Notes under the pieces: model-generated
Seen by the model: the letters and a program-made list of their open reading frames with translations, nothing else
What the model was told of the DNA's origin: nothing
The model's database searches: none
Assembly (NCBI RefSeq): GCF_000204195.1
Contig: NZ_AFBG01000020.1
Span: 1 to 64,000, forward strand
DNA from: Acidovorax radicis N35
GTDB lineage: Bacteria; Pseudomonadota; Gammaproteobacteria; Burkholderiales; Burkholderiaceae_C
Length of the DNA stretch: 64,000 nt
Direction of reading: 5' to 3'
Shown here: positions 1,692 to 8,130 of the stretch, piece after piece
How the letters are laid out: each line of letters begins with the position of its first letter
Position numbering within the stretch: the stretch's first letter is position 1
Program-made: the position numbers and the translations under genes

Positions 1692-2063
1692 ATGTTGAGA
1701 CGCATACTGCAAATCGTTGCTGGATGGTTTGGGTTGGGCAGCGGATCAGAGGCTGCCAAGAGACCTGAAGAGCAAGCGTTTGTCCTTCAAACTTTTGAAG
1801 ACCGCCGCTCAGCGACGGCCGCAGCTTCACGTCCAGGAGTTGCAGCTCTGGTCCAAAGCGGAGAGCGAGCGAAGTGGCTTCTGATGCTGTGTCCCTGTGG
1901 CTGTGGGCAACAGATCGCCCTAAACCTAATGTCGAGCCACTCGCCGAGGTGGGAAGTGAAGATCCTTTCTAAAACCAGCTTCTCTGTCCATCCGTCCGTC
2001 GATGCAACAAGTTGCGGTGCTCACTTCTGGCTCCGAAATGGTCGGGTCATTTGGTGTCAGTAG
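1692..2063 (+). CDS. DUF6527-like Cys/His protein of ubiquitin-like conjugation loci
   Basis: This 123-aa protein has a short hydrophobic N-terminus (ILQIVAGWFGL), a variable linker, and a conserved C-terminal half: AKWLLMLCPCGCGQQIALNL, SSHSPRW, then SVHPSVDATSCGAHFWLRNGRVIWC. The CPCGC cluster, two His (SHS, VHP), a CGAHFW and a final Cys look like a metal site or a Cys-His catalytic centre; which one is not evident. I recognise the pattern as the DUF6527 family, which co-occurs with Ubl/E2/E1-JAB genes. Here it converges on the E1-JAB gene and their 3' ends overlap by 17 bp. Its biochemical role is unknown to me; ligase, peptidase and adaptor are all possible. Confidence 0.65.
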   Translation: MLRRILQIVAGWFGLGSGSEAAKRPEEQAFVLQTFEDRRSATAAASRPGVAALVQSGERAKWLLMLCPCGCGQQIALNLMSSHSPRWEVKILSKTSFSVHPSVDATSCGAHFWLRNGRVIWCQ

Positions 2064-3414
2064 GCCATACCATTTCGAGAAATGGCTCAGTATCACCTCG
2101 GCCCCAGAATGAGTGGTCATCGCAAACGCAGCCATCTCGCGGTTTAATCCGATTGGTGCGCAATCGAGACTGGTCAAGTGCAAGCAATACTTCAGAAGAT
2201 TGTCGTTCGCTTCCCATGAAGCCAGTCAAGCGGTGCAGAAGCTCCATCACGGCGGCGCTTGCTGTCGCGGAAGTAAAAGCGATCACGGCAGGCGCGGGTT
2301 CGTCAAGTTCAGGCGCGTAGCCATCCCGCACTTGGCGCTGCCGATCTTCGTCCGAAAGCGCTTCAATACGGATGGCTTCTGCTGTGATACGCCCTCGACA
2401 AAAGAGACAGGCCTCACCAGGCAACAATGTCGTAACGCGGCCGTGGACACCAGAAATGCACCCATCTTTAGAGTCGACAAGAACTCCAAGGTCGAAGACA
2501 GGGGTGGAGTACCGATTTGCTAGCTGCACTAGGATTGCTCTTGGCAATTCCTTATCAGTGCATCCAAACACAACGTCACACTCTCTTAAACGCCGCGCTG
2601 TTTTTTCATGGCTGATGTGCCTTGGAATCGCTTCCACAATGGTGTTGAGCCCGATCTTGTCGAGGTGCTCCTTGAGCATCTCAACCTTCAACCTCCCGTC
2701 GTCTTGCAAGGACGAACCATAGACCCGGTTGACATTGGTCTCCGCAAATCTATCTCCGTCGAAAAGCCATAGGCTCCCAACACCGAGGCGGTAGAGTTGC
2801 TCAGCAACAGGAGACCCCGTGCCGCCCACTCCGACAATACCGATTCGGAGTCGTCCTAAAAGACGCTGAATATCTGGCCCGAAGGCCCTCACCTGCCGGT
2901 CAAAGAACGGCTCTACGGCGTCCCCAGCGTTGGGCGTCCAACTTCGAATGCGGTCACCAACAACAATGACCTCGTCGACCGCCACCTGATCCGGCATGTA
3001 CATACGCCCTTGAATATGGTGTTCCGTCAGGACTAGAGTGCCATGAATTCGCCCTGGGACGCGCGCCTGAAGAAAAGGCAGCAGTCGTGCTTCTTCTCGA
3101 TCATCTTGCTCCGAAAAATCAGACACTCCCTCGGGGTGCGAGTGCGCGAAAACGACGCTTAGTTCTTCGTATCGGGCGAGCTTAGCAACGCGCGTTAGCG
3201 CTGGCGATGCGATAGTTAAACCATACCGCTCTCGCCGTAGGTAGTCCTCGTCGGCGACTGGAAGCACCGCATGAACGATGAGCTTCACAGTGCCTTGGGA
3301 AACGGATTGCCCACACAAGAGAAAGGCGGCACCTTCAACGCCTGGCCGGTCGAAGAGCTTTTGTCGCAACTCTTCGAGCTGAGATTCAAGCATCACGATT
3401 CGCGTTGCAGTCAT
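2047..3414 (-). CDS. JAMM isopeptidase-E1 (ThiF-type) fusion
   Basis: 455 aa with two domains. Residues ~10-150 form a JAB/JAMM metalloprotease: Glu27 (GVEGAAFLL), then H91-S-H93-P followed by S101-E-Q-D104, a complete ExnHxHPx6SxxD zinc motif, so the peptidase should be active. Residues ~185-455 form an adenylating ThiF/E1 domain with the nucleotide loop GVGGTGS (195-201), a DGDRFAETNVNR segment for ATP binding, a CLFC pair and a terminal CVC that could bind structural zinc. The E1 would activate the Ubl C-terminus and the JAMM domain could trim the precursor or remove conjugates. It is the last gene of its operon; its ATG overlaps the E2 stop by 4 bp. Confidence 0.85.
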   Translation of the reverse strand: MTATRIVMLESQLEELRQKLFDRPGVEGAAFLLCGQSVSQGTVKLIVHAVLPVADEDYLRRERYGLTIASPALTRVAKLARYEELSVVFAHSHPEGVSDFSEQDDREEARLLPFLQARVPGRIHGTLVLTEHHIQGRMYMPDQVAVDEVIVVGDRIRSWTPNAGDAVEPFFDRQVRAFGPDIQRLLGRLRIGIVGVGGTGSPVAEQLYRLGVGSLWLFDGDRFAETNVNRVYGSSLQDDGRLKVEMLKEHLDKIGLNTIVEAIPRHISHEKTARRLRECDVVFGCTDKELPRAILVQLANRYSTPVFDLGVLVDSKDGCISGVHGRVTTLLPGEACLFCRGRITAEAIRIEALSDEDRQRQVRDGYAPELDEPAPAVIAFTSATASAAVMELLHRLTGFMGSERQSSEVLLALDQSRLRTNRIKPRDGCVCDDHSFWGRGDTEPFLEMVWPTDTK

Positions 3415-3800
3415 GATCTTGCGGCTCCTTGCAACTCGCGTTGAATAAGCGTGAAGTAGGACCGTAGGCTATCGACTCCAGGTCGCCATCCACCATTGAG
3501 GTGTCGAGAGAAGCGTTGCCAGGACCGCGCGAGATGGGACTCCATCACTTCCGATGCAGGCGCAAACTGACCGCTTGCTACCAAGCGAATTGGTGGATCG
3601 CAGTACCACATGTCCAGCGGTGTCATGGGGTACTGAGGAGGGATCCTAATCATGAGTTCGGTAGCCGCTGGCGTGAAGCCACCTGCTGCTACGCTGAAAT
3701 TCTTCACGATGAGGCATGCAGCACCCTGAGGATCGGGTAGCAGCTCCCAATCCAAGCCCCGCTCATTCAGAAACTTCACATCGCGCGCAGGCAGTTCCAT
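3411..3800 (-). CDS. Prokaryotic E2-like ubiquitin-conjugating protein
   Basis: 129 aa, matching the prokaryotic E2 families known from bacterial ubiquitin-like operons. Core features are IRIPPQYPMTPLDMWYCDPP and later SWQRFSRHLNGGWRPGVDSL. The only cysteines are C29 and C67; C67, in MWYCDPP just after the YP-x-PLD strand, is the best candidate for the thioester-forming residue. It follows the Ubl gene with a single base between stop and start (TGACATG) and overlaps the E1-JAB start by ATGA, so the three are certainly co-translated. Assignment to the E2 superfamily is firm by motif and context; the exact subfamily is inferred. Confidence 0.75.
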   Translation of the reverse strand: MELPARDVKFLNERGLDWELLPDPQGAACLIVKNFSVAAGGFTPAATELMIRIPPQYPMTPLDMWYCDPPIRLVASGQFAPASEVMESHLARSWQRFSRHLNGGWRPGVDSLRSYFTLIQRELQGAARS

Positions 3801-3801
3801 G

Positions 3802-4068
3802 TCACTTCCCCCCTGGGTTGATAGTGCTCGGTGCTGTGTAGAAATGCGAGCCAGGCTTGACTTCGTAGGTTGCCTCTGGATGGATCAGCTCGTCATCCCT
3901 GGGGCCAGGGACCTCTAGCCAAAGGTCCCGATCTGCCGGAACAGGAACCAAGGCACGTAGTTGTGCCCCGGTGCACGGGCTTGCAGGCAAGTCGTACTTA
4001 ACGTCATCAATAAAGATTGGAATGACGCGAGGACGCTTCTCCGACGAGTCATGTGTGGTGGATTCCAT
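3802..4068 (-). CDS. Ubiquitin-like modifier (multiubiquitin-family beta-grasp protein)
   Basis: 88 aa with the start set at ATG 4068, which has AAAGGA 8 bases upstream; more distal starts would lie in or before the promoter. Residues ~14-85 form one beta-grasp domain of the multiubiquitin type: IFIDDVKYDLP, GAQLRALV, DLWLEVPG, and ATYEVKPGSHFYTAP. Many relatives carry tandem domains; this one has a single domain. The C-terminus is NPGGK, a Gly-Gly with one extra residue, as expected of a modifier that must be trimmed before activation. It is the first gene of the operon and the likely substrate of the E1-E2 pair encoded next. Confidence 0.75.
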   Translation of the reverse strand: MESTTHDSSEKRPRVIPIFIDDVKYDLPASPCTGAQLRALVPVPADRDLWLEVPGPRDDELIHPEATYEVKPGSHFYTAPSTINPGGK

Positions 4069-4098: not shown

Positions 4099-4127
4099 AA
4101 TATAGCTATAAATTAGCCAAAAAGCAA
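4099..4127 (-). promoter_or_regulatory. Promoter of the Ubl-E2-E1/JAB operon
   Basis: Read on the minus strand, TTGCTT (4122-4127) and TATATT (4099-4104) are separated by exactly 17 bp. The expected start near 4092 leaves a leader of about 24 nt that contains the AAAGGA ribosome site before ATG 4068. Confidence 0.6.
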
Positions 4128-4157
4128 TTGTTTTTGCATTGTCCACTAGCTAAAAAG
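4114..4157. promoter_or_regulatory. Paired TAGCYAAAAAG direct repeats, candidate operators for both divergent operons
   Basis: TAGCCAAAAAG at 4114-4124 and TAGCTAAAAAG at 4147-4157 differ at one base and are 33 bp apart, about three helical turns. The first overlaps the -35 box and spacer of the minus-strand promoter; the second lies in the spacer of the plus-strand promoter. This suits a dimeric or cooperative repressor acting on both promoters. The RHH and XRE proteins encoded alongside are the obvious candidates, by inference. Confidence 0.5.
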
Positions 4158-4167
4158 GCGGTATCAT
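4139..4167 (+). promoter_or_regulatory. Promoter of the RHH-GNAT-XRE-ImmA operon
   Basis: TTGTCC (4139-4144) and TATCAT (4162-4167) are 17 bp apart. A start near 4174 would place the GGAG ribosome site (4181-4184) and GTG 4191 just downstream. Confidence 0.6.
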
Positions 4168-4190: not shown

Positions 4191-4403
4191 GTGAATGCCA
4201 AGCGAACGATGACCCTCAACTTGACTGAGCCTGAGATGGCTGTACTGGAGGCACTGTGCGAAGAGAAAGATTTGAGCAAGACGGCTGTCCTTCGCCAGGC
4301 GCTACGCCTCTATCAACTGGTGAACGCTCGTTTGAAACAGGGAGAGAAACTCTTTTTCGAGGACGAGATGGCCAAGGAGAAGAAGGAAGTGGTCGTGTTG
4401 TGA
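4191..4403 (+). CDS. Ribbon-helix-helix regulator (antitoxin-like)
   Basis: 70 aa from GTG 4191, chosen because GGAG lies 6 bases upstream and the promoter immediately before; ATG 4209 is an alternative in-frame start. The strand TMTLNLTEPEM, followed by VLEALCEEKDLSKTAVLRQ and ALRLYQLV, is a classic CopG/RHH beta-helix-helix DNA-binding core. The charged tail (KKEVVVL) could contact the next gene product. RHH proteins encoded directly before a GNAT enzyme are a known toxin-antitoxin arrangement; here the stop overlaps the GNAT start. It probably represses its own promoter, and possibly the divergent Ubl promoter. Confidence 0.75.
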   Translation: MNAKRTMTLNLTEPEMAVLEALCEEKDLSKTAVLRQALRLYQLVNARLKQGEKLFFEDEMAKEKKEVVVL

Positions 4404-5020
4404 GTGAGCACCATCTTGTCCCTCTGAAAGCCGCTGATGGCAGCATTGTTGATGCCGTGCTCCATGAGCGTGTTGATGCAGGATACGGACTCAAGGTAGA
4501 CAGCAACTGGAAGGCACATCTGGCAGCCGAAACGGTTCGCGCCGTGGCCGAAGGGCGAGCGATTTCGCATCTTGAGCACGGACATTGGGAATGGGGCGAG
4601 AAGATCAAAGAATCTGCCCATCTGTTGTCATGCCCAACCCTCGCCATCGAATACGCGAATGAAACGCAAGGGCTGATGTTGGTTCAGACTGACGGCCATT
4701 TCGGCAAGTTGCCACAACAAGTCGACAAGCCCTTGGTGTATGTCGTCTACTTGGCCACAGCGCCTTGGAATCTCCGGGCTCTCGATGCAATGCCGCGCTT
4801 TTCGGGTGTCGGATTGGTGATGCTGCACGCGGCGATCCAAATGAGCATTGACAATGAATTCAAAGGCCGGATCGGCCTTCACTCACTGCCCCAAGCAGAA
4901 AAATTTTACGAAAGGCAAGGTTTTCAGTGCCTCGGCGTAGACCTCGAAAAGGAGGGCCTCAAATACTACGAACTCAGCTCGCAAGCTGCTAGCGAGTTCA
5001 TTGGCAGGAGCACACTATGA
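4400..5020 (+). CDS. GNAT-family acetyltransferase
   Basis: 206 aa from GTG 4400, which overlaps the preceding TGA (TTGTGA). The C-terminal half carries the GNAT fold: FSGVGLVMLHAAIQMSID supplies the acetyl-CoA loop in degenerate form, and GRIGLHSLPQAEKFYERQGF gives the typical final strand-helix with the Tyr that often acts as general acid. The N-terminal ~100 residues are longer than in TacT-type toxins, so a role other than tRNA acetylation is possible. Position between an RHH gene and an XRE-ImmA pair, with ATGA coupling on both sides, implies that it works as part of this operon. The substrate is unknown. Confidence 0.7.
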   Translation: MSEHHLVPLKAADGSIVDAVLHERVDAGYGLKVDSNWKAHLAAETVRAVAEGRAISHLEHGHWEWGEKIKESAHLLSCPTLAIEYANETQGLMLVQTDGHFGKLPQQVDKPLVYVVYLATAPWNLRALDAMPRFSGVGLVMLHAAIQMSIDNEFKGRIGLHSLPQAEKFYERQGFQCLGVDLEKEGLKYYELSSQAASEFIGRSTL

Positions 5021-5511
5021 AATTACAAATTTCACGCGAATGGCTAGAACACAAACTCCAGCAAGACGATGACGCGAACGTCGGCGCGGGAGGTACATCC
5101 TTGGAACAATTTAAGAAGGATGTACAGCAGCGGACAGTTACCCCTTCAGTTCTTGCCAGGGTGCCGACTGAGTTGGGCCAAGTCGTTAGATACGTCAGAG
5201 AGCAACGAGGTTGGTCTAGATCCGAGTTAGCTGACCTTGCCGACGTGGATGAGTCCGAAATCAATGCACTCGAAACCCAAACTCACTATGACCCGACTCC
5301 GCGAACGGTTGGGCAATTGGCGGATGCCTGTCACTTCTCGAGAGTCAAGTTTGCGGAACTAGCCAACCATCGCCTAAAAATTGCGGCAAACGATGGCGTT
5401 GTTCGCTATGTCGCAAAGTCAAAGGGGACCGATGCTGTATCTGATGATCAGTATGAGTTGATCCGCGCACTCGTTGAGGTATTGTCTCAAGGGGGAGAGC
5501 CTACGAGATGA
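5017..5511 (+). CDS. XRE-family helix-turn-helix regulator
   Basis: 164 aa; its ATG overlaps the GNAT stop by 4 bp. Residues ~52-108 form an XRE HTH: LGQVVRYVREQRGWSRSELA, then DVDESEINALE and TVGQLADACHF. The flanking N-terminal segment (SREWLEHKLQQDDD...) and the C-terminal region are not recognised. XRE proteins encoded immediately before an ImmA/IrrE protease are commonly repressors inactivated by proteolysis, as ImmR by ImmA in ICEBs1; the same logic is likely here and would make the operon inducible by damage or infection. Confidence 0.8.
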   Translation: MKLQISREWLEHKLQQDDDANVGAGGTSLEQFKKDVQQRTVTPSVLARVPTELGQVVRYVREQRGWSRSELADLADVDESEINALETQTHYDPTPRTVGQLADACHFSRVKFAELANHRLKIAANDGVVRYVAKSKGTDAVSDDQYELIRALVEVLSQGGEPTR

Positions 5512-6458
5512 ACAACATTTTCCTGGACGCGAGGACGATCCGCGACATCGACAAGGTGGTTGACCGAGTGCATCTCGAGCTTGGCTACAAAGATGGTGCT
5601 ATTGATCTGCGAGATGTGCGGGAGGCCTTGAGATTGGATCTGAAGTACTACCGTCTTGATGATCCTGGGCTGCTCGACGAGGTTGTTCATAAGTTAACCG
5701 TCGGAGCAAAACAAGTGATCGCGCGACCAGGTTTACTCGTGGAAGCCGTCAGGACGTTCAACCTAAGTGCCCTATTTTTGCCAGATCGTAAGCGGATCTT
5801 TGTCGACCAAAGTGTTCCCGAACTTAAAAAGCGCTGGTATGAAACGCATGAAATCGCGCATAGTTTGATTCCATGGCACGCTGACTATACGCTTGGCGAC
5901 AATCGGAGCACGCTTTCGCAGGGATGCCACGAACGCATTGAGGCCGAGGCAAACTACGGCGGCGGGCGGCTTCTCTTTCCAAACGAAGCCTTCACGCACT
6001 GTCGGCTGTCAGGCCCCATGAGCGTGGGGCGGGTGCGAGAAATCGCAAAACACTTCGGCAACACTATCACGAGTACTCTTTGGCGCTGTGTAGAGCAGAG
6101 CGACGAGCTCATGTTCGCTGCAATTGGGGAGCATCCCCGACGCCCGCGAGATGGCAAACCGGTCGTCGAGTATTTCATCCGATCAAAGACGTTTGAGACG
6201 CAGTTCCCAGGGGTCACTGACATGGATGTTTGGAACTGGATGTCCGGCTACTGCGTCGGTAAAACGACCGGCCCTCTTGGTACAACAGAGATTCCTGTCC
6301 AGGACAGGAATGGGCAGTCGCACATCTTTCTTATCGAATCGTTCGGCAATGGCTATAACGCATTGACCATGGCAAGGTGGCTACGAAAGGCTCCCGCAAT
6401 AGTCTCCGTGGGGGGACTGACAGCACCGTTGCTTATTGCACCTCTAGCGGGGCAATAG
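5508..6458 (+). CDS. ImmA/IrrE-family zinc metalloprotease
   Basis: 316 aa; ATG overlaps the XRE stop by 4 bp. The zinc motif H114-E-I-A-H118 is intact, followed by HERIEAEAN (141-149), whose Glu145 is the expected third ligand, and GGGRLLFP, typical of ImmA/IrrE. The C-terminal ~120 residues (from KPVVEYFIRSKTFETQFPG) form a second domain found in longer family members, possibly a sensor. The expected function is cleavage of the XRE partner in response to a signal. It is the last gene of the four-gene operon. Confidence 0.85.
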   Translation: MNNIFLDARTIRDIDKVVDRVHLELGYKDGAIDLRDVREALRLDLKYYRLDDPGLLDEVVHKLTVGAKQVIARPGLLVEAVRTFNLSALFLPDRKRIFVDQSVPELKKRWYETHEIAHSLIPWHADYTLGDNRSTLSQGCHERIEAEANYGGGRLLFPNEAFTHCRLSGPMSVGRVREIAKHFGNTITSTLWRCVEQSDELMFAAIGEHPRRPRDGKPVVEYFIRSKTFETQFPGVTDMDVWNWMSGYCVGKTTGPLGTTEIPVQDRNGQSHIFLIESFGNGYNALTMARWLRKAPAIVSVGGLTAPLLIAPLAGQ

Positions 6459-7560: not shown

Positions 7561-7782
7561 TGATTTAAAAGGTGTTTTTTGCATATTTCGAAGACGCAAT
7601 GCACTTGACTTCCTGTTGTCGGAGTCCTGGCGGTGTCGGTGGTTCCGGCACTTTGGTGCCCCGCTTTGCGATTGGTGCGACTTTTGGAACAGTCTGTTCA
7701 TGATCCAGCAATTTTCTCCCCCGCTGGCATTGCACCCCCCGCTATGGCAGACTGCATCGCCCAACGCCTTCGGGAGACGCGC

Positions 7783-8130
7783 ATGACCGAGCCGACTGCC
7801 CTTTGTGACATTCTTGTTGTCACCACCACGGTGGCCACCGAGGCGGAAGCGCGGCGGCTGGCACAGCTGGTCTTGCAGGCGCGGCTGGCAGCCTGTGTGC
7901 AGGTGGAGCCCATCACGGCTTACTTCCGCTGGCAGGGCGCCTTGCAGGAGGACCGCGAACTCCGGCTGGTCTGCAAGACCGTGCCCCGTGCGCTGCAGCC
8001 GCTGTTGGGCTTGCTGCGGGCACAGCATCCCTATGCGCTGCCGCAATTGGTGGTGCACGCGCAGCAGGGCTCTGCAGAATATGCCGACTGGGTGGATGCA
8101 CAGGTGGCCCGCGCCACGGTGCTGGCCTGA
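7783..8130 (+). CDS. cutA: CutA-type divalent-cation tolerance protein
   Basis: 115 aa from ATG 7783, with GGGAG 6 bases upstream; an upstream in-frame ATG (7744) would give an atypical extension. The family core is clear: ILVVTTTVATEAEARRLAQ, LAACVQVEPITAYFRWQG, LVCKTVPRALQPLLGLL, and HPYALPQLV. CutA proteins are small cytosolic trimers related in fold to PII; they were first linked to copper tolerance, but their true ligand is uncertain. It is the first core-genome gene after the accessory region. Confidence 0.9.
   Translation: MTEPTALCDILVVTTTVATEAEARRLAQLVLQARLAACVQVEPITAYFRWQGALQEDRELRLVCKTVPRALQPLLGLLRAQHPYALPQLVVHAQQGSAEYADWVDAQVARATVLA

Follow-up and report, generated by a model that had tools for sequence, protein, structure and literature searches.

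A Bub operon of Acidovorax radicis N35 and the adjoining RHH-GNAT-HTH-M78 cassette, its probable controller

The Bub genes

A stretch of 64,000 nt from Acidovorax radicis N35 (contig NZ_AFBG01000020.1), called the window below, carries a ubiquitin-like conjugation set and, beside it, a four-gene operon that probably controls it. Protein families were assigned with Pfam and defence-gene matches with PADLOC. All four conjugation genes placed at 1692-4068 by a first-pass annotation were found there. Three lie on the reverse strand: a single-domain ubiquitin-like modifier (Ubl) of BubA type (3802-4068, 88 amino acids), whose Multi_ubiq score of 24.2 bits is marginally below the Pfam cut-off of 24.5; an E2-fold protein of BubB type without a conserved catalytic Cys (3411-3800; Prok-E2_E, PF14462, 6e-41; BubB 9eae_C, E 1.4e-9); and a JAB-E1 fusion of BubCD type (2047-3414; ThiF 3.2e-32, Prok-JAB 1.5e-7; Citrobacter BubCD 9ea4, E 3.9e-43). 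The fourth gene, on the forward strand and convergent with the E1 gene, encodes a DUF6527 zinc-type protein (1692-2063; PF20137, 1.4e-20) and overlaps the 3' tail of the E1 gene by 17 bases. The genome of the window has one copy of DUF6527 and a single full-length match to the window E1, two other matches covering part of the ThiF domain only.

Judged by sequence, the set is a Bub (bacterial ubiquitination-like) operon of Iyer type 6e and thus of known kind, because its parts equal those of that type and its E1 and E2 proteins are homologous to BubCD and BubB. In type 6e as set out in Iyer 2006 (PMC1779556), the E1 has an N-terminal JAB, the Ubl protein has one to three repeats, the E2/RWD-like protein lacks the cysteine, and a further small protein binds metal. 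Likewise, the window has the JAB at the N-terminus of the E1, a Prok-E2_E protein, a Multi_ubiq Ubl whose slightly sub-threshold score is backed by a structural model, and a DUF6527-like metal-binding protein. We infer that DUF6527 is the C-x3-C..H-x2-C protein of that description; the second half reads C-x2-H in the window. Bub operons are the subject of Gong 2025 and Ye 2026, as cited in the accessible part of PMC13373217. The accessible part of Chambers 2026 counts 544 Bub operons, 219 of them adjoined by CapW or CapH+CapP and 59 by CapK+CapS, and in it phage protection of the host by Bub operons is not demonstrated; a link to phage defence for Bub itself is unproven.

The window differs from other Bub operons in its convergent DUF6527 gene and in a separate single Ubl with a tail running two residues past the conserved Gly. 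The convergent gene had been called unusual, and rightly so, since it was seen in two of 38 scorable Bub loci, both within the window's own clade. A single-domain Ubl had been called unusual too, and this did not hold: the accessible text of Iyer 2006 has one to three repeats, and a single short Ubl gene is also present in loci L034, L035, L036, L051, L057, L058 and L059. In a tree of cassettes (see below) the window forms one fully supported clade with Thiobacillus (L057), Sulfuritalea (L058) and Lysobacter telluris (L059), and all four have the separate short Ubl. DUF6527 is convergent in L057 and L059 as in the window; the L058 contig ends short of this gene. Identity between the window and L057 is 57-79% across all eight proteins.

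The first-pass annotation had further described the key residues as intact. By conservation in relatives, this was borne out for the JAB and for the E1 nucleotide loop and failed for the E2 cysteine and the Ubl diglycine. Among 51 E1 relatives the JAMM residues E27, H91, H93, S101 and D104 are kept in 46, 46, 48, 48 and 46, respectively, all of them being present in the window, as is the GVGGTGS loop, which is conserved among relatives. The zinc-type cysteines C336, C339, C429 and C431 of the window are found in 34 or 35 of the 51. The sole near-invariant further cysteine is C285, which on our reading sits in the usual ThiF loop. In the E2-fold protein, C67 was rejected as the catalytic cysteine, this position being Cys in just 14 of 49 distinct relatives, Leu in 14, Ala in 9 and Phe in 7, and Val in Citrobacter BubB; its variability fits the type 6e E2-like domain without the cysteine in the accessible text of Iyer 2006. 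Residues L11, D63, M64, P69, S98, R99, H100, W105 and D110 are invariant (49/49). The E2 fold, suggested as a check, is supported by homology to the solved BubB and not by a model of its own.

The second suggested check, on a beta-grasp fold for the Ubl, was made with an AlphaFold2 model from 15 sequences (mean predicted local distance difference test score, pLDDT, 79; order strand-strand-helix-strand-strand-strand). Its best match in the PDB was 9d5a (E 6.3e-5, TM 0.70), followed by 9d59, 8u38, 9cd2 and 9d5b, and since the best matches are solved bacterial multi-ubiquitin proteins, the model supports the fold. The window tail reads INPGGK, and the closest relatives end NPGAR, NPGAT or NPGTN, that is, INPG followed by AR, AT or TN. 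The short Ubls of L034, L035 and L051 also end in INPG plus one or two residues, and many multi-domain Ubls have TTEG at the C-terminal end. Gly-Gly was rejected as the Ubl end, only its first Gly being common to the nearest relatives. Because INPG runs on by one or two residues in short Ubls, their sequences make a step in which JAB or DUF6527 trims the tail likely.

Among 46 DUF6527 sequences, C67, P68, W87, P101, S102 and H111 are invariant, and C71, C108 and C122 are present in 42. The protein has an N-terminal helix, and the invariant Pro-Ser pair (P101, S102) adjoins the metal-type residues. Foldseek found no PDB match to the DUF6527 model (pLDDT 88.5) at E <= 0.001, and a second fold comparison reached a Z of 3.5 at most; a new fold is not thereby demonstrated.

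The adjoining cassette and its partners

The neighbouring four-gene regulatory operon, likewise noted in the first pass, is real. It occupies 4191-6458 on the forward strand, and each start overlaps the preceding stop by four bases. The first gene (4191-4403; GTG start chosen by homologue comparison) encodes a ribbon-helix-helix (RHH) protein (RHH_1 21.9 bits, cut-off 20.5), the proposed repressor. It is followed by a GNAT-type acetyltransferase (4400-5020; Acetyltransf_10 27.2 bits, cut-off 23.6) that is conserved across cassettes and has RxxGxG at residues 133-138. A helix-turn-helix (HTH) protein (5017-5511; HTH_31 1.7e-11) is CapH-like by position and partner, its PADLOC match to capH being weak (1.5e-5). 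The last gene (5508-6458) encodes an M78 metallopeptidase of ImmA/IrrE/CapP-like type (Peptidase_M78 22.8 bits, cut-off 22; PADLOC capP 2e-11) with HEIAH and EAEAN intact. Thus, as with CapH + CapP, an HTH protein and an M78 peptidase adjoin an immune operon, and, as in RHH-GNAT toxin-antitoxin modules, the RHH and GNAT genes are adjacent.

The RHH protein shows 55-75% identity to those of 14 other cassettes, against 22-28% for the HTH protein; RHH is the most conserved cassette member, and its DNA-contacting strand is MTLNL in 83 of 85. In 14 aligned M78 proteins, H114, E115, H118 and E147, the HExxH and the downstream Glu, are invariant. The M78 profile matched IrrE 3dte (4.9e-6), 8slm and CapP 7t5t (3.8e-4), and the HTH profile matched SinR and 7t5u (2.8e-6); no match of the GNAT profile to PDB sequences was found at E <= 1.

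To sample cassettes, the M78 alignment was the only query used against GTDB contigs, which kept selection independent of the neighbours, and gene profiles built from plasmid loci were then applied to the best 80 of 124 relatives. All four genes were present in 78 of these 80 loci, the other two being cut by a contig end. A defence operon lay beside the cassette in 72 of the 80: Bub in 42, cyclic oligonucleotide-based anti-phage signalling systems (CBASS) in 23, Bil in 4, and 6A-MBL, a type I restriction-modification system and CAP12-TIR in one each. A first profile count had given Bub 41, CBASS 22, Bil 2 and other 15. Among the last, a Multi_ubiq gene (L084), a type II CBASS (L120), Bil (L074, L103), an E2-E1-JAB set with MBL (L069), a type I restriction system (L061) and a CAP12-type TIR gene (L076) were subsequently recognised. 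In the loci of the first count the cassette is divergent from its partner in 36 of 41 Bub, 22 of 22 CBASS and 2 of 2 Bil cases; four of the remaining Bub cases are convergent and one is co-directional. Seventeen distinct plasmid records (M78 cover at least 80%) gave Bub in 11, CBASS in 3, Bil in 2 and Cas9 in 1. Two plasmid Bub records (L053, L055) have HTH and M78 only, with no recognisable RHH or GNAT.

The cassette is rare: of 369 genomes from the class 2 have it, as do 2 of 398 from the phylum, each count including the genome of the window, and in one order 8 of 396 have it. Neither E1 nor GNAT had a match in 50,697 phage records, and no relatives of M78 or E1 were found in viral contigs; a scan of genome contigs queried with the single E1 gave no matches. 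The GNAT alignment picked out 11 weak loci (L137-L147) in viral contigs.

On a quick tree of 95 concatenated cassettes, which has several long branches, at least 6 changes are required to explain the labels Bub, CBASS and Bil, which means that cassettes have swapped partners. All seven partner labels together need 14 changes, against 38.5 when shuffled. Partners are mostly inherited with the cassette, yet exchanged at times.

Several further arrangements were seen around these genes. On a Methylocystis bryophila plasmid (L051) the cassette accompanies CBASS, and a Bub operon roughly 7 kb away lacks it. In L034 (4431-5200) and L035 (4153-5190) an RHH gene lies beside Bub or diverges from it, with a Fic-family gene before or after the RHH gene; this is perhaps a different controller built to the same plan. 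Relatives of GNAT without the other cassette genes were found in cyanobacterial plasmids, in L056 near a DISARM drmD gene. In L049, L171, L174 and L178 a Bub-like E1 has DUF6791 (PF20590) in place of JAB, with weak DUF6527 matches and, in L049, Multi_ubiq; such operons are probably the JAB-less subset of Iyer 2006. In the window itself, the end of an IS21 IstB gene lies at the contig start (15-362), no open reading frame tried from there to 1690 had a Pfam match, and CutA1 (7633-8130) may already belong to the chromosome outside the island.

An operator within the defence promoter

Upstream of RHH the cassettes share the site TRGCYA-N5-TRGCYA, mostly TAGCTA twice, with half-sites 11 bases apart. 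It was counted in 85 distinct regions, leaving out L133, where no RHH start could be recognised, and nine identical regions. The site is exact in 67 of the 85 and has one mismatch at most in 76, compared with none and 0.6%, respectively, in 1,700 mononucleotide shuffles. When spacers of 0-15 other than 5 were tried, exact sites appeared in at most one region. By partner, exact sites occur in 37 of 45 Bub and 22 of 23 CBASS regions. Across 1.42 Mb of 80 cassette loci there are 73 exact sites, and 71 of them lie within 200 bases of an RHH start. In 185 kb surrounding 13 Bub loci that lack the full cassette, no exact site was found, and four sites had one mismatch (L151, L154, L155); whole loci were scanned in this control, since a promoter-only version may miss the promoter where Ubl or E2 goes unrecognised (L150, L152, L154, L155).

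In the window the operator, TAGCTA-N5-TAGCCA at 4103-4119, matches the motif exactly and lies inside the apparent promoter of the Ubl operon on the reverse strand (4099-4127), which has a -35 box TTGCTT (4122-4127), a 17-base spacer and a -10 box TATATT (4099-4104). Divergent from it, on the forward strand, is an apparent promoter of the RHH operon, TTGTCC-17-TATCAT (4139-4167), with a third TAGCTA half-site (4147-4152) in the spacer; with one promoter-like site against 0.4 expected in shuffles of the region, it is weak taken alone. The window on its own is not significant as regards the operator, with 3 sites within one mismatch against 1.5 expected. The pattern occurs 5 times in its genome, and 4103-4119 is the sole occurrence of the TAGC type. 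Among 76 loci, 49 have -35 and -10 boxes scoring at least 8 of 12 around the site, compared with 9.4% when the flanks were shuffled and the site kept. In the apparent defence promoter, the operator is thus positioned between these two boxes.

Once the motif had been fixed, new loci were collected; nine were fetched and four already used (L078, L102, L121, L122) were left out. The five held-out loci, whose M78 proteins are 55-72% identical to the nearest known, all have the four genes, a divergent Bub-type E1 with DUF6527 and the exact site.

Proposed control and relation to known systems

Because the cassette recurs next to defence operons and shares a site placed in their apparent promoters, we consider it probable that the neighbour of the Bub operon is its controller, a portable RHH-GNAT-HTH-M78 cassette also found next to CBASS and Bil and, in a few cases, other defence operons. 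On our reading of the sequences, a CapH/CapP-like damage-sensing pair would be joined by an RHH repressor and an acetyltransferase to make a further family of immune-operon controllers. For the reader of the site, the trigger, the cleavage of HTH, the role of GNAT and each step of conjugation we infer the following course. RHH dimers would bind adjacent TAGCTA half-sites, spaced 11 bases apart and flanked by the -35 and -10 boxes of the defence promoter; with the further half-site that the window has in its RHH promoter, both operons would be silenced. RHH proteins are suited to paired short half-sites one helical turn apart, and RHH is taken as the reader because the spacing suits it, because it is the most conserved member and because its strand MTLNL is near-invariant. 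HTH and M78 would form a repressor-protease pair of the CapH/CapP, DdrO/PprI or ImmR/ImmA kind. In the accessible text of PMC10904395 and PMC10233336, CapP and PprI are peptidases that are activated by single-stranded DNA and cut an HTH repressor; likewise, single-stranded DNA from damage or phage attack may activate M78, so that HTH is cut and the promoters are released, and GNAT may acetylate one of the regulators, setting or clearing repression. After release, JAB would trim the Ubl tail to INPG, E1 would adenylate the Ubl, and the E2-fold protein, which lacks a conserved catalytic Cys, could help to transfer it to its targets. The full version of this scheme, in which RHH on TAGCTA-N5-TAGCTA is licensed by a CapP-like protease and an acetyltransferase as an acetylation-gated, damage-triggered switch common to CBASS, Bub and Bil, is speculative, and we hold it to be rather unlikely as it stands.

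A number of observations weigh against the proposed control. Several of the cassettes are identical, so that the 80 loci are not independent, and for 8 of these loci, two cut by contig ends, no defence neighbour was recognised. Six of the loci assigned to Bub have weak E1 scores, and the examined ones carry DUF6791, not JAB. E1 scores are also weak in four of the five held-out loci, three of which were examined and have DUF6791 at the JAB position, recalling the JAB-less subset mentioned in the accessible text of Iyer 2006. In the four convergent GTDB loci L065-L068 and in Jiella L040, cassette and Bub promoter do not face each other, and in L065-L067 the exact site lies only by RHH, leaving control of Bub unclear there. 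Two or more operator mismatches occur in 9 of the 85 regions. The case for RHH as the reader, built on half-site shape and the near-invariant strand, is weak, and the single changed strand, MTLIL, occurs in L050, whose site is degenerate. Finally, the likeness of M78 to CapP is by profile only (E 3.8e-4).

Three other explanations were considered. HTH and M78 could simply be the CapH+CapP already counted beside Bub (Chambers 2026, within the 219 of 544 with CapW or CapH+CapP), RHH and GNAT having gone unremarked beside them. The PADLOC and profile matches to CapP and CapH and the published association agree with this, although RHH, GNAT and the operator are not named in the accessible part of Chambers 2026 and the similarity to CapP is remote; it is a real possibility, but one we lean against. 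It is unlikely, in our opinion, that the CapH-like HTH protein reads the operator while RHH and GNAT are a toxin-antitoxin pair riding with an ordinary CapH/CapP controller. Adjacent RHH and GNAT genes are indeed a known toxin-antitoxin arrangement, and in L055, L053 and L036 Bub is flanked by HTH and M78 without the other two genes. However, no site was found anywhere in L036 (13.4 kb) or L055 (14.8 kb), the four genes stay together in 78 of 80 loci, and the high identity of RHH, as opposed to HTH, is what would be expected of the reader of a near-invariant site.

Least probable by some way is a cassette that is an independent defence or stress system of defence islands and does not control its neighbour. 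The convergent loci L040 and L065-L068, the Cas9 downstream in L052 and the eight GTDB loci without a recognised partner would suit it, but the divergent layout found with most Bub and all CBASS and Bil partners of the first count, with the site inside the apparent defence promoter, counts against it. As to the two plasmid loci concerned, in Jiella pelagia (L040, 10677-11932) a second HTH-ImmA pair is divergent from Bub, with which the cassette is convergent, and in Marinibacterium anthonyi (L052, 6608-12137) the gene annotated Cas9 is on the same strand as the cassette.

If the cassette controls its neighbours, it is swappable between Bub, CBASS and Bil with one operator. As controller and operator are common to both, it can be argued that Bub is used in the same circumstances as CBASS, and the acetylation-gated switch, if true, would mean in addition that Bub is organised as an immune pathway. 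The cassette gives a direct handle on when Bub switches on, acetylation would be a possible added layer in the control of bacterial immunity, and the DNA motif together with the gene cassette offers a means of finding new defence operons. No published description of the cassette was found in a literature search that excluded preprints, most subscription papers and key Bub papers.

Among known systems, Bil (BilABCD) resembles the window set in having Ubl, E2, E1 and JAB, and the cassette itself lies beside Bil in L050, L062 and L103. Bil, however, has a separate JAB gene (BilC), whereas the window JAB is fused to E1, and BilD was not among the best PADLOC matches of the window E1, these being E1-E2 models. 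CapK + CapS and CapW, in the accessible part of PMC13373217, are interchangeable controllers beside Bub, CBASS and Bil, as the cassette appears to be; unlike them, the four cassette proteins have no Pfam match to WYL, GHKL or STAS. The closest likeness is to CapH + CapP, controllers of CBASS (Lau 2022, as described in the accessible parts of PMC10233336, PMC10904395 and PMC13373217), with which the cassette shares an HTH protein and an M78 peptidase by an immune operon and profile matches to 7t5t and 7t5u. It differs from them in the RHH and GNAT genes added at the front of the operon, in its divergent layout and in the RHH-style TAGCTA-N5-TAGCTA site. Our verdict from these sequences is that the cassette would be control of CapH/CapP type with two added genes and a defined operator.

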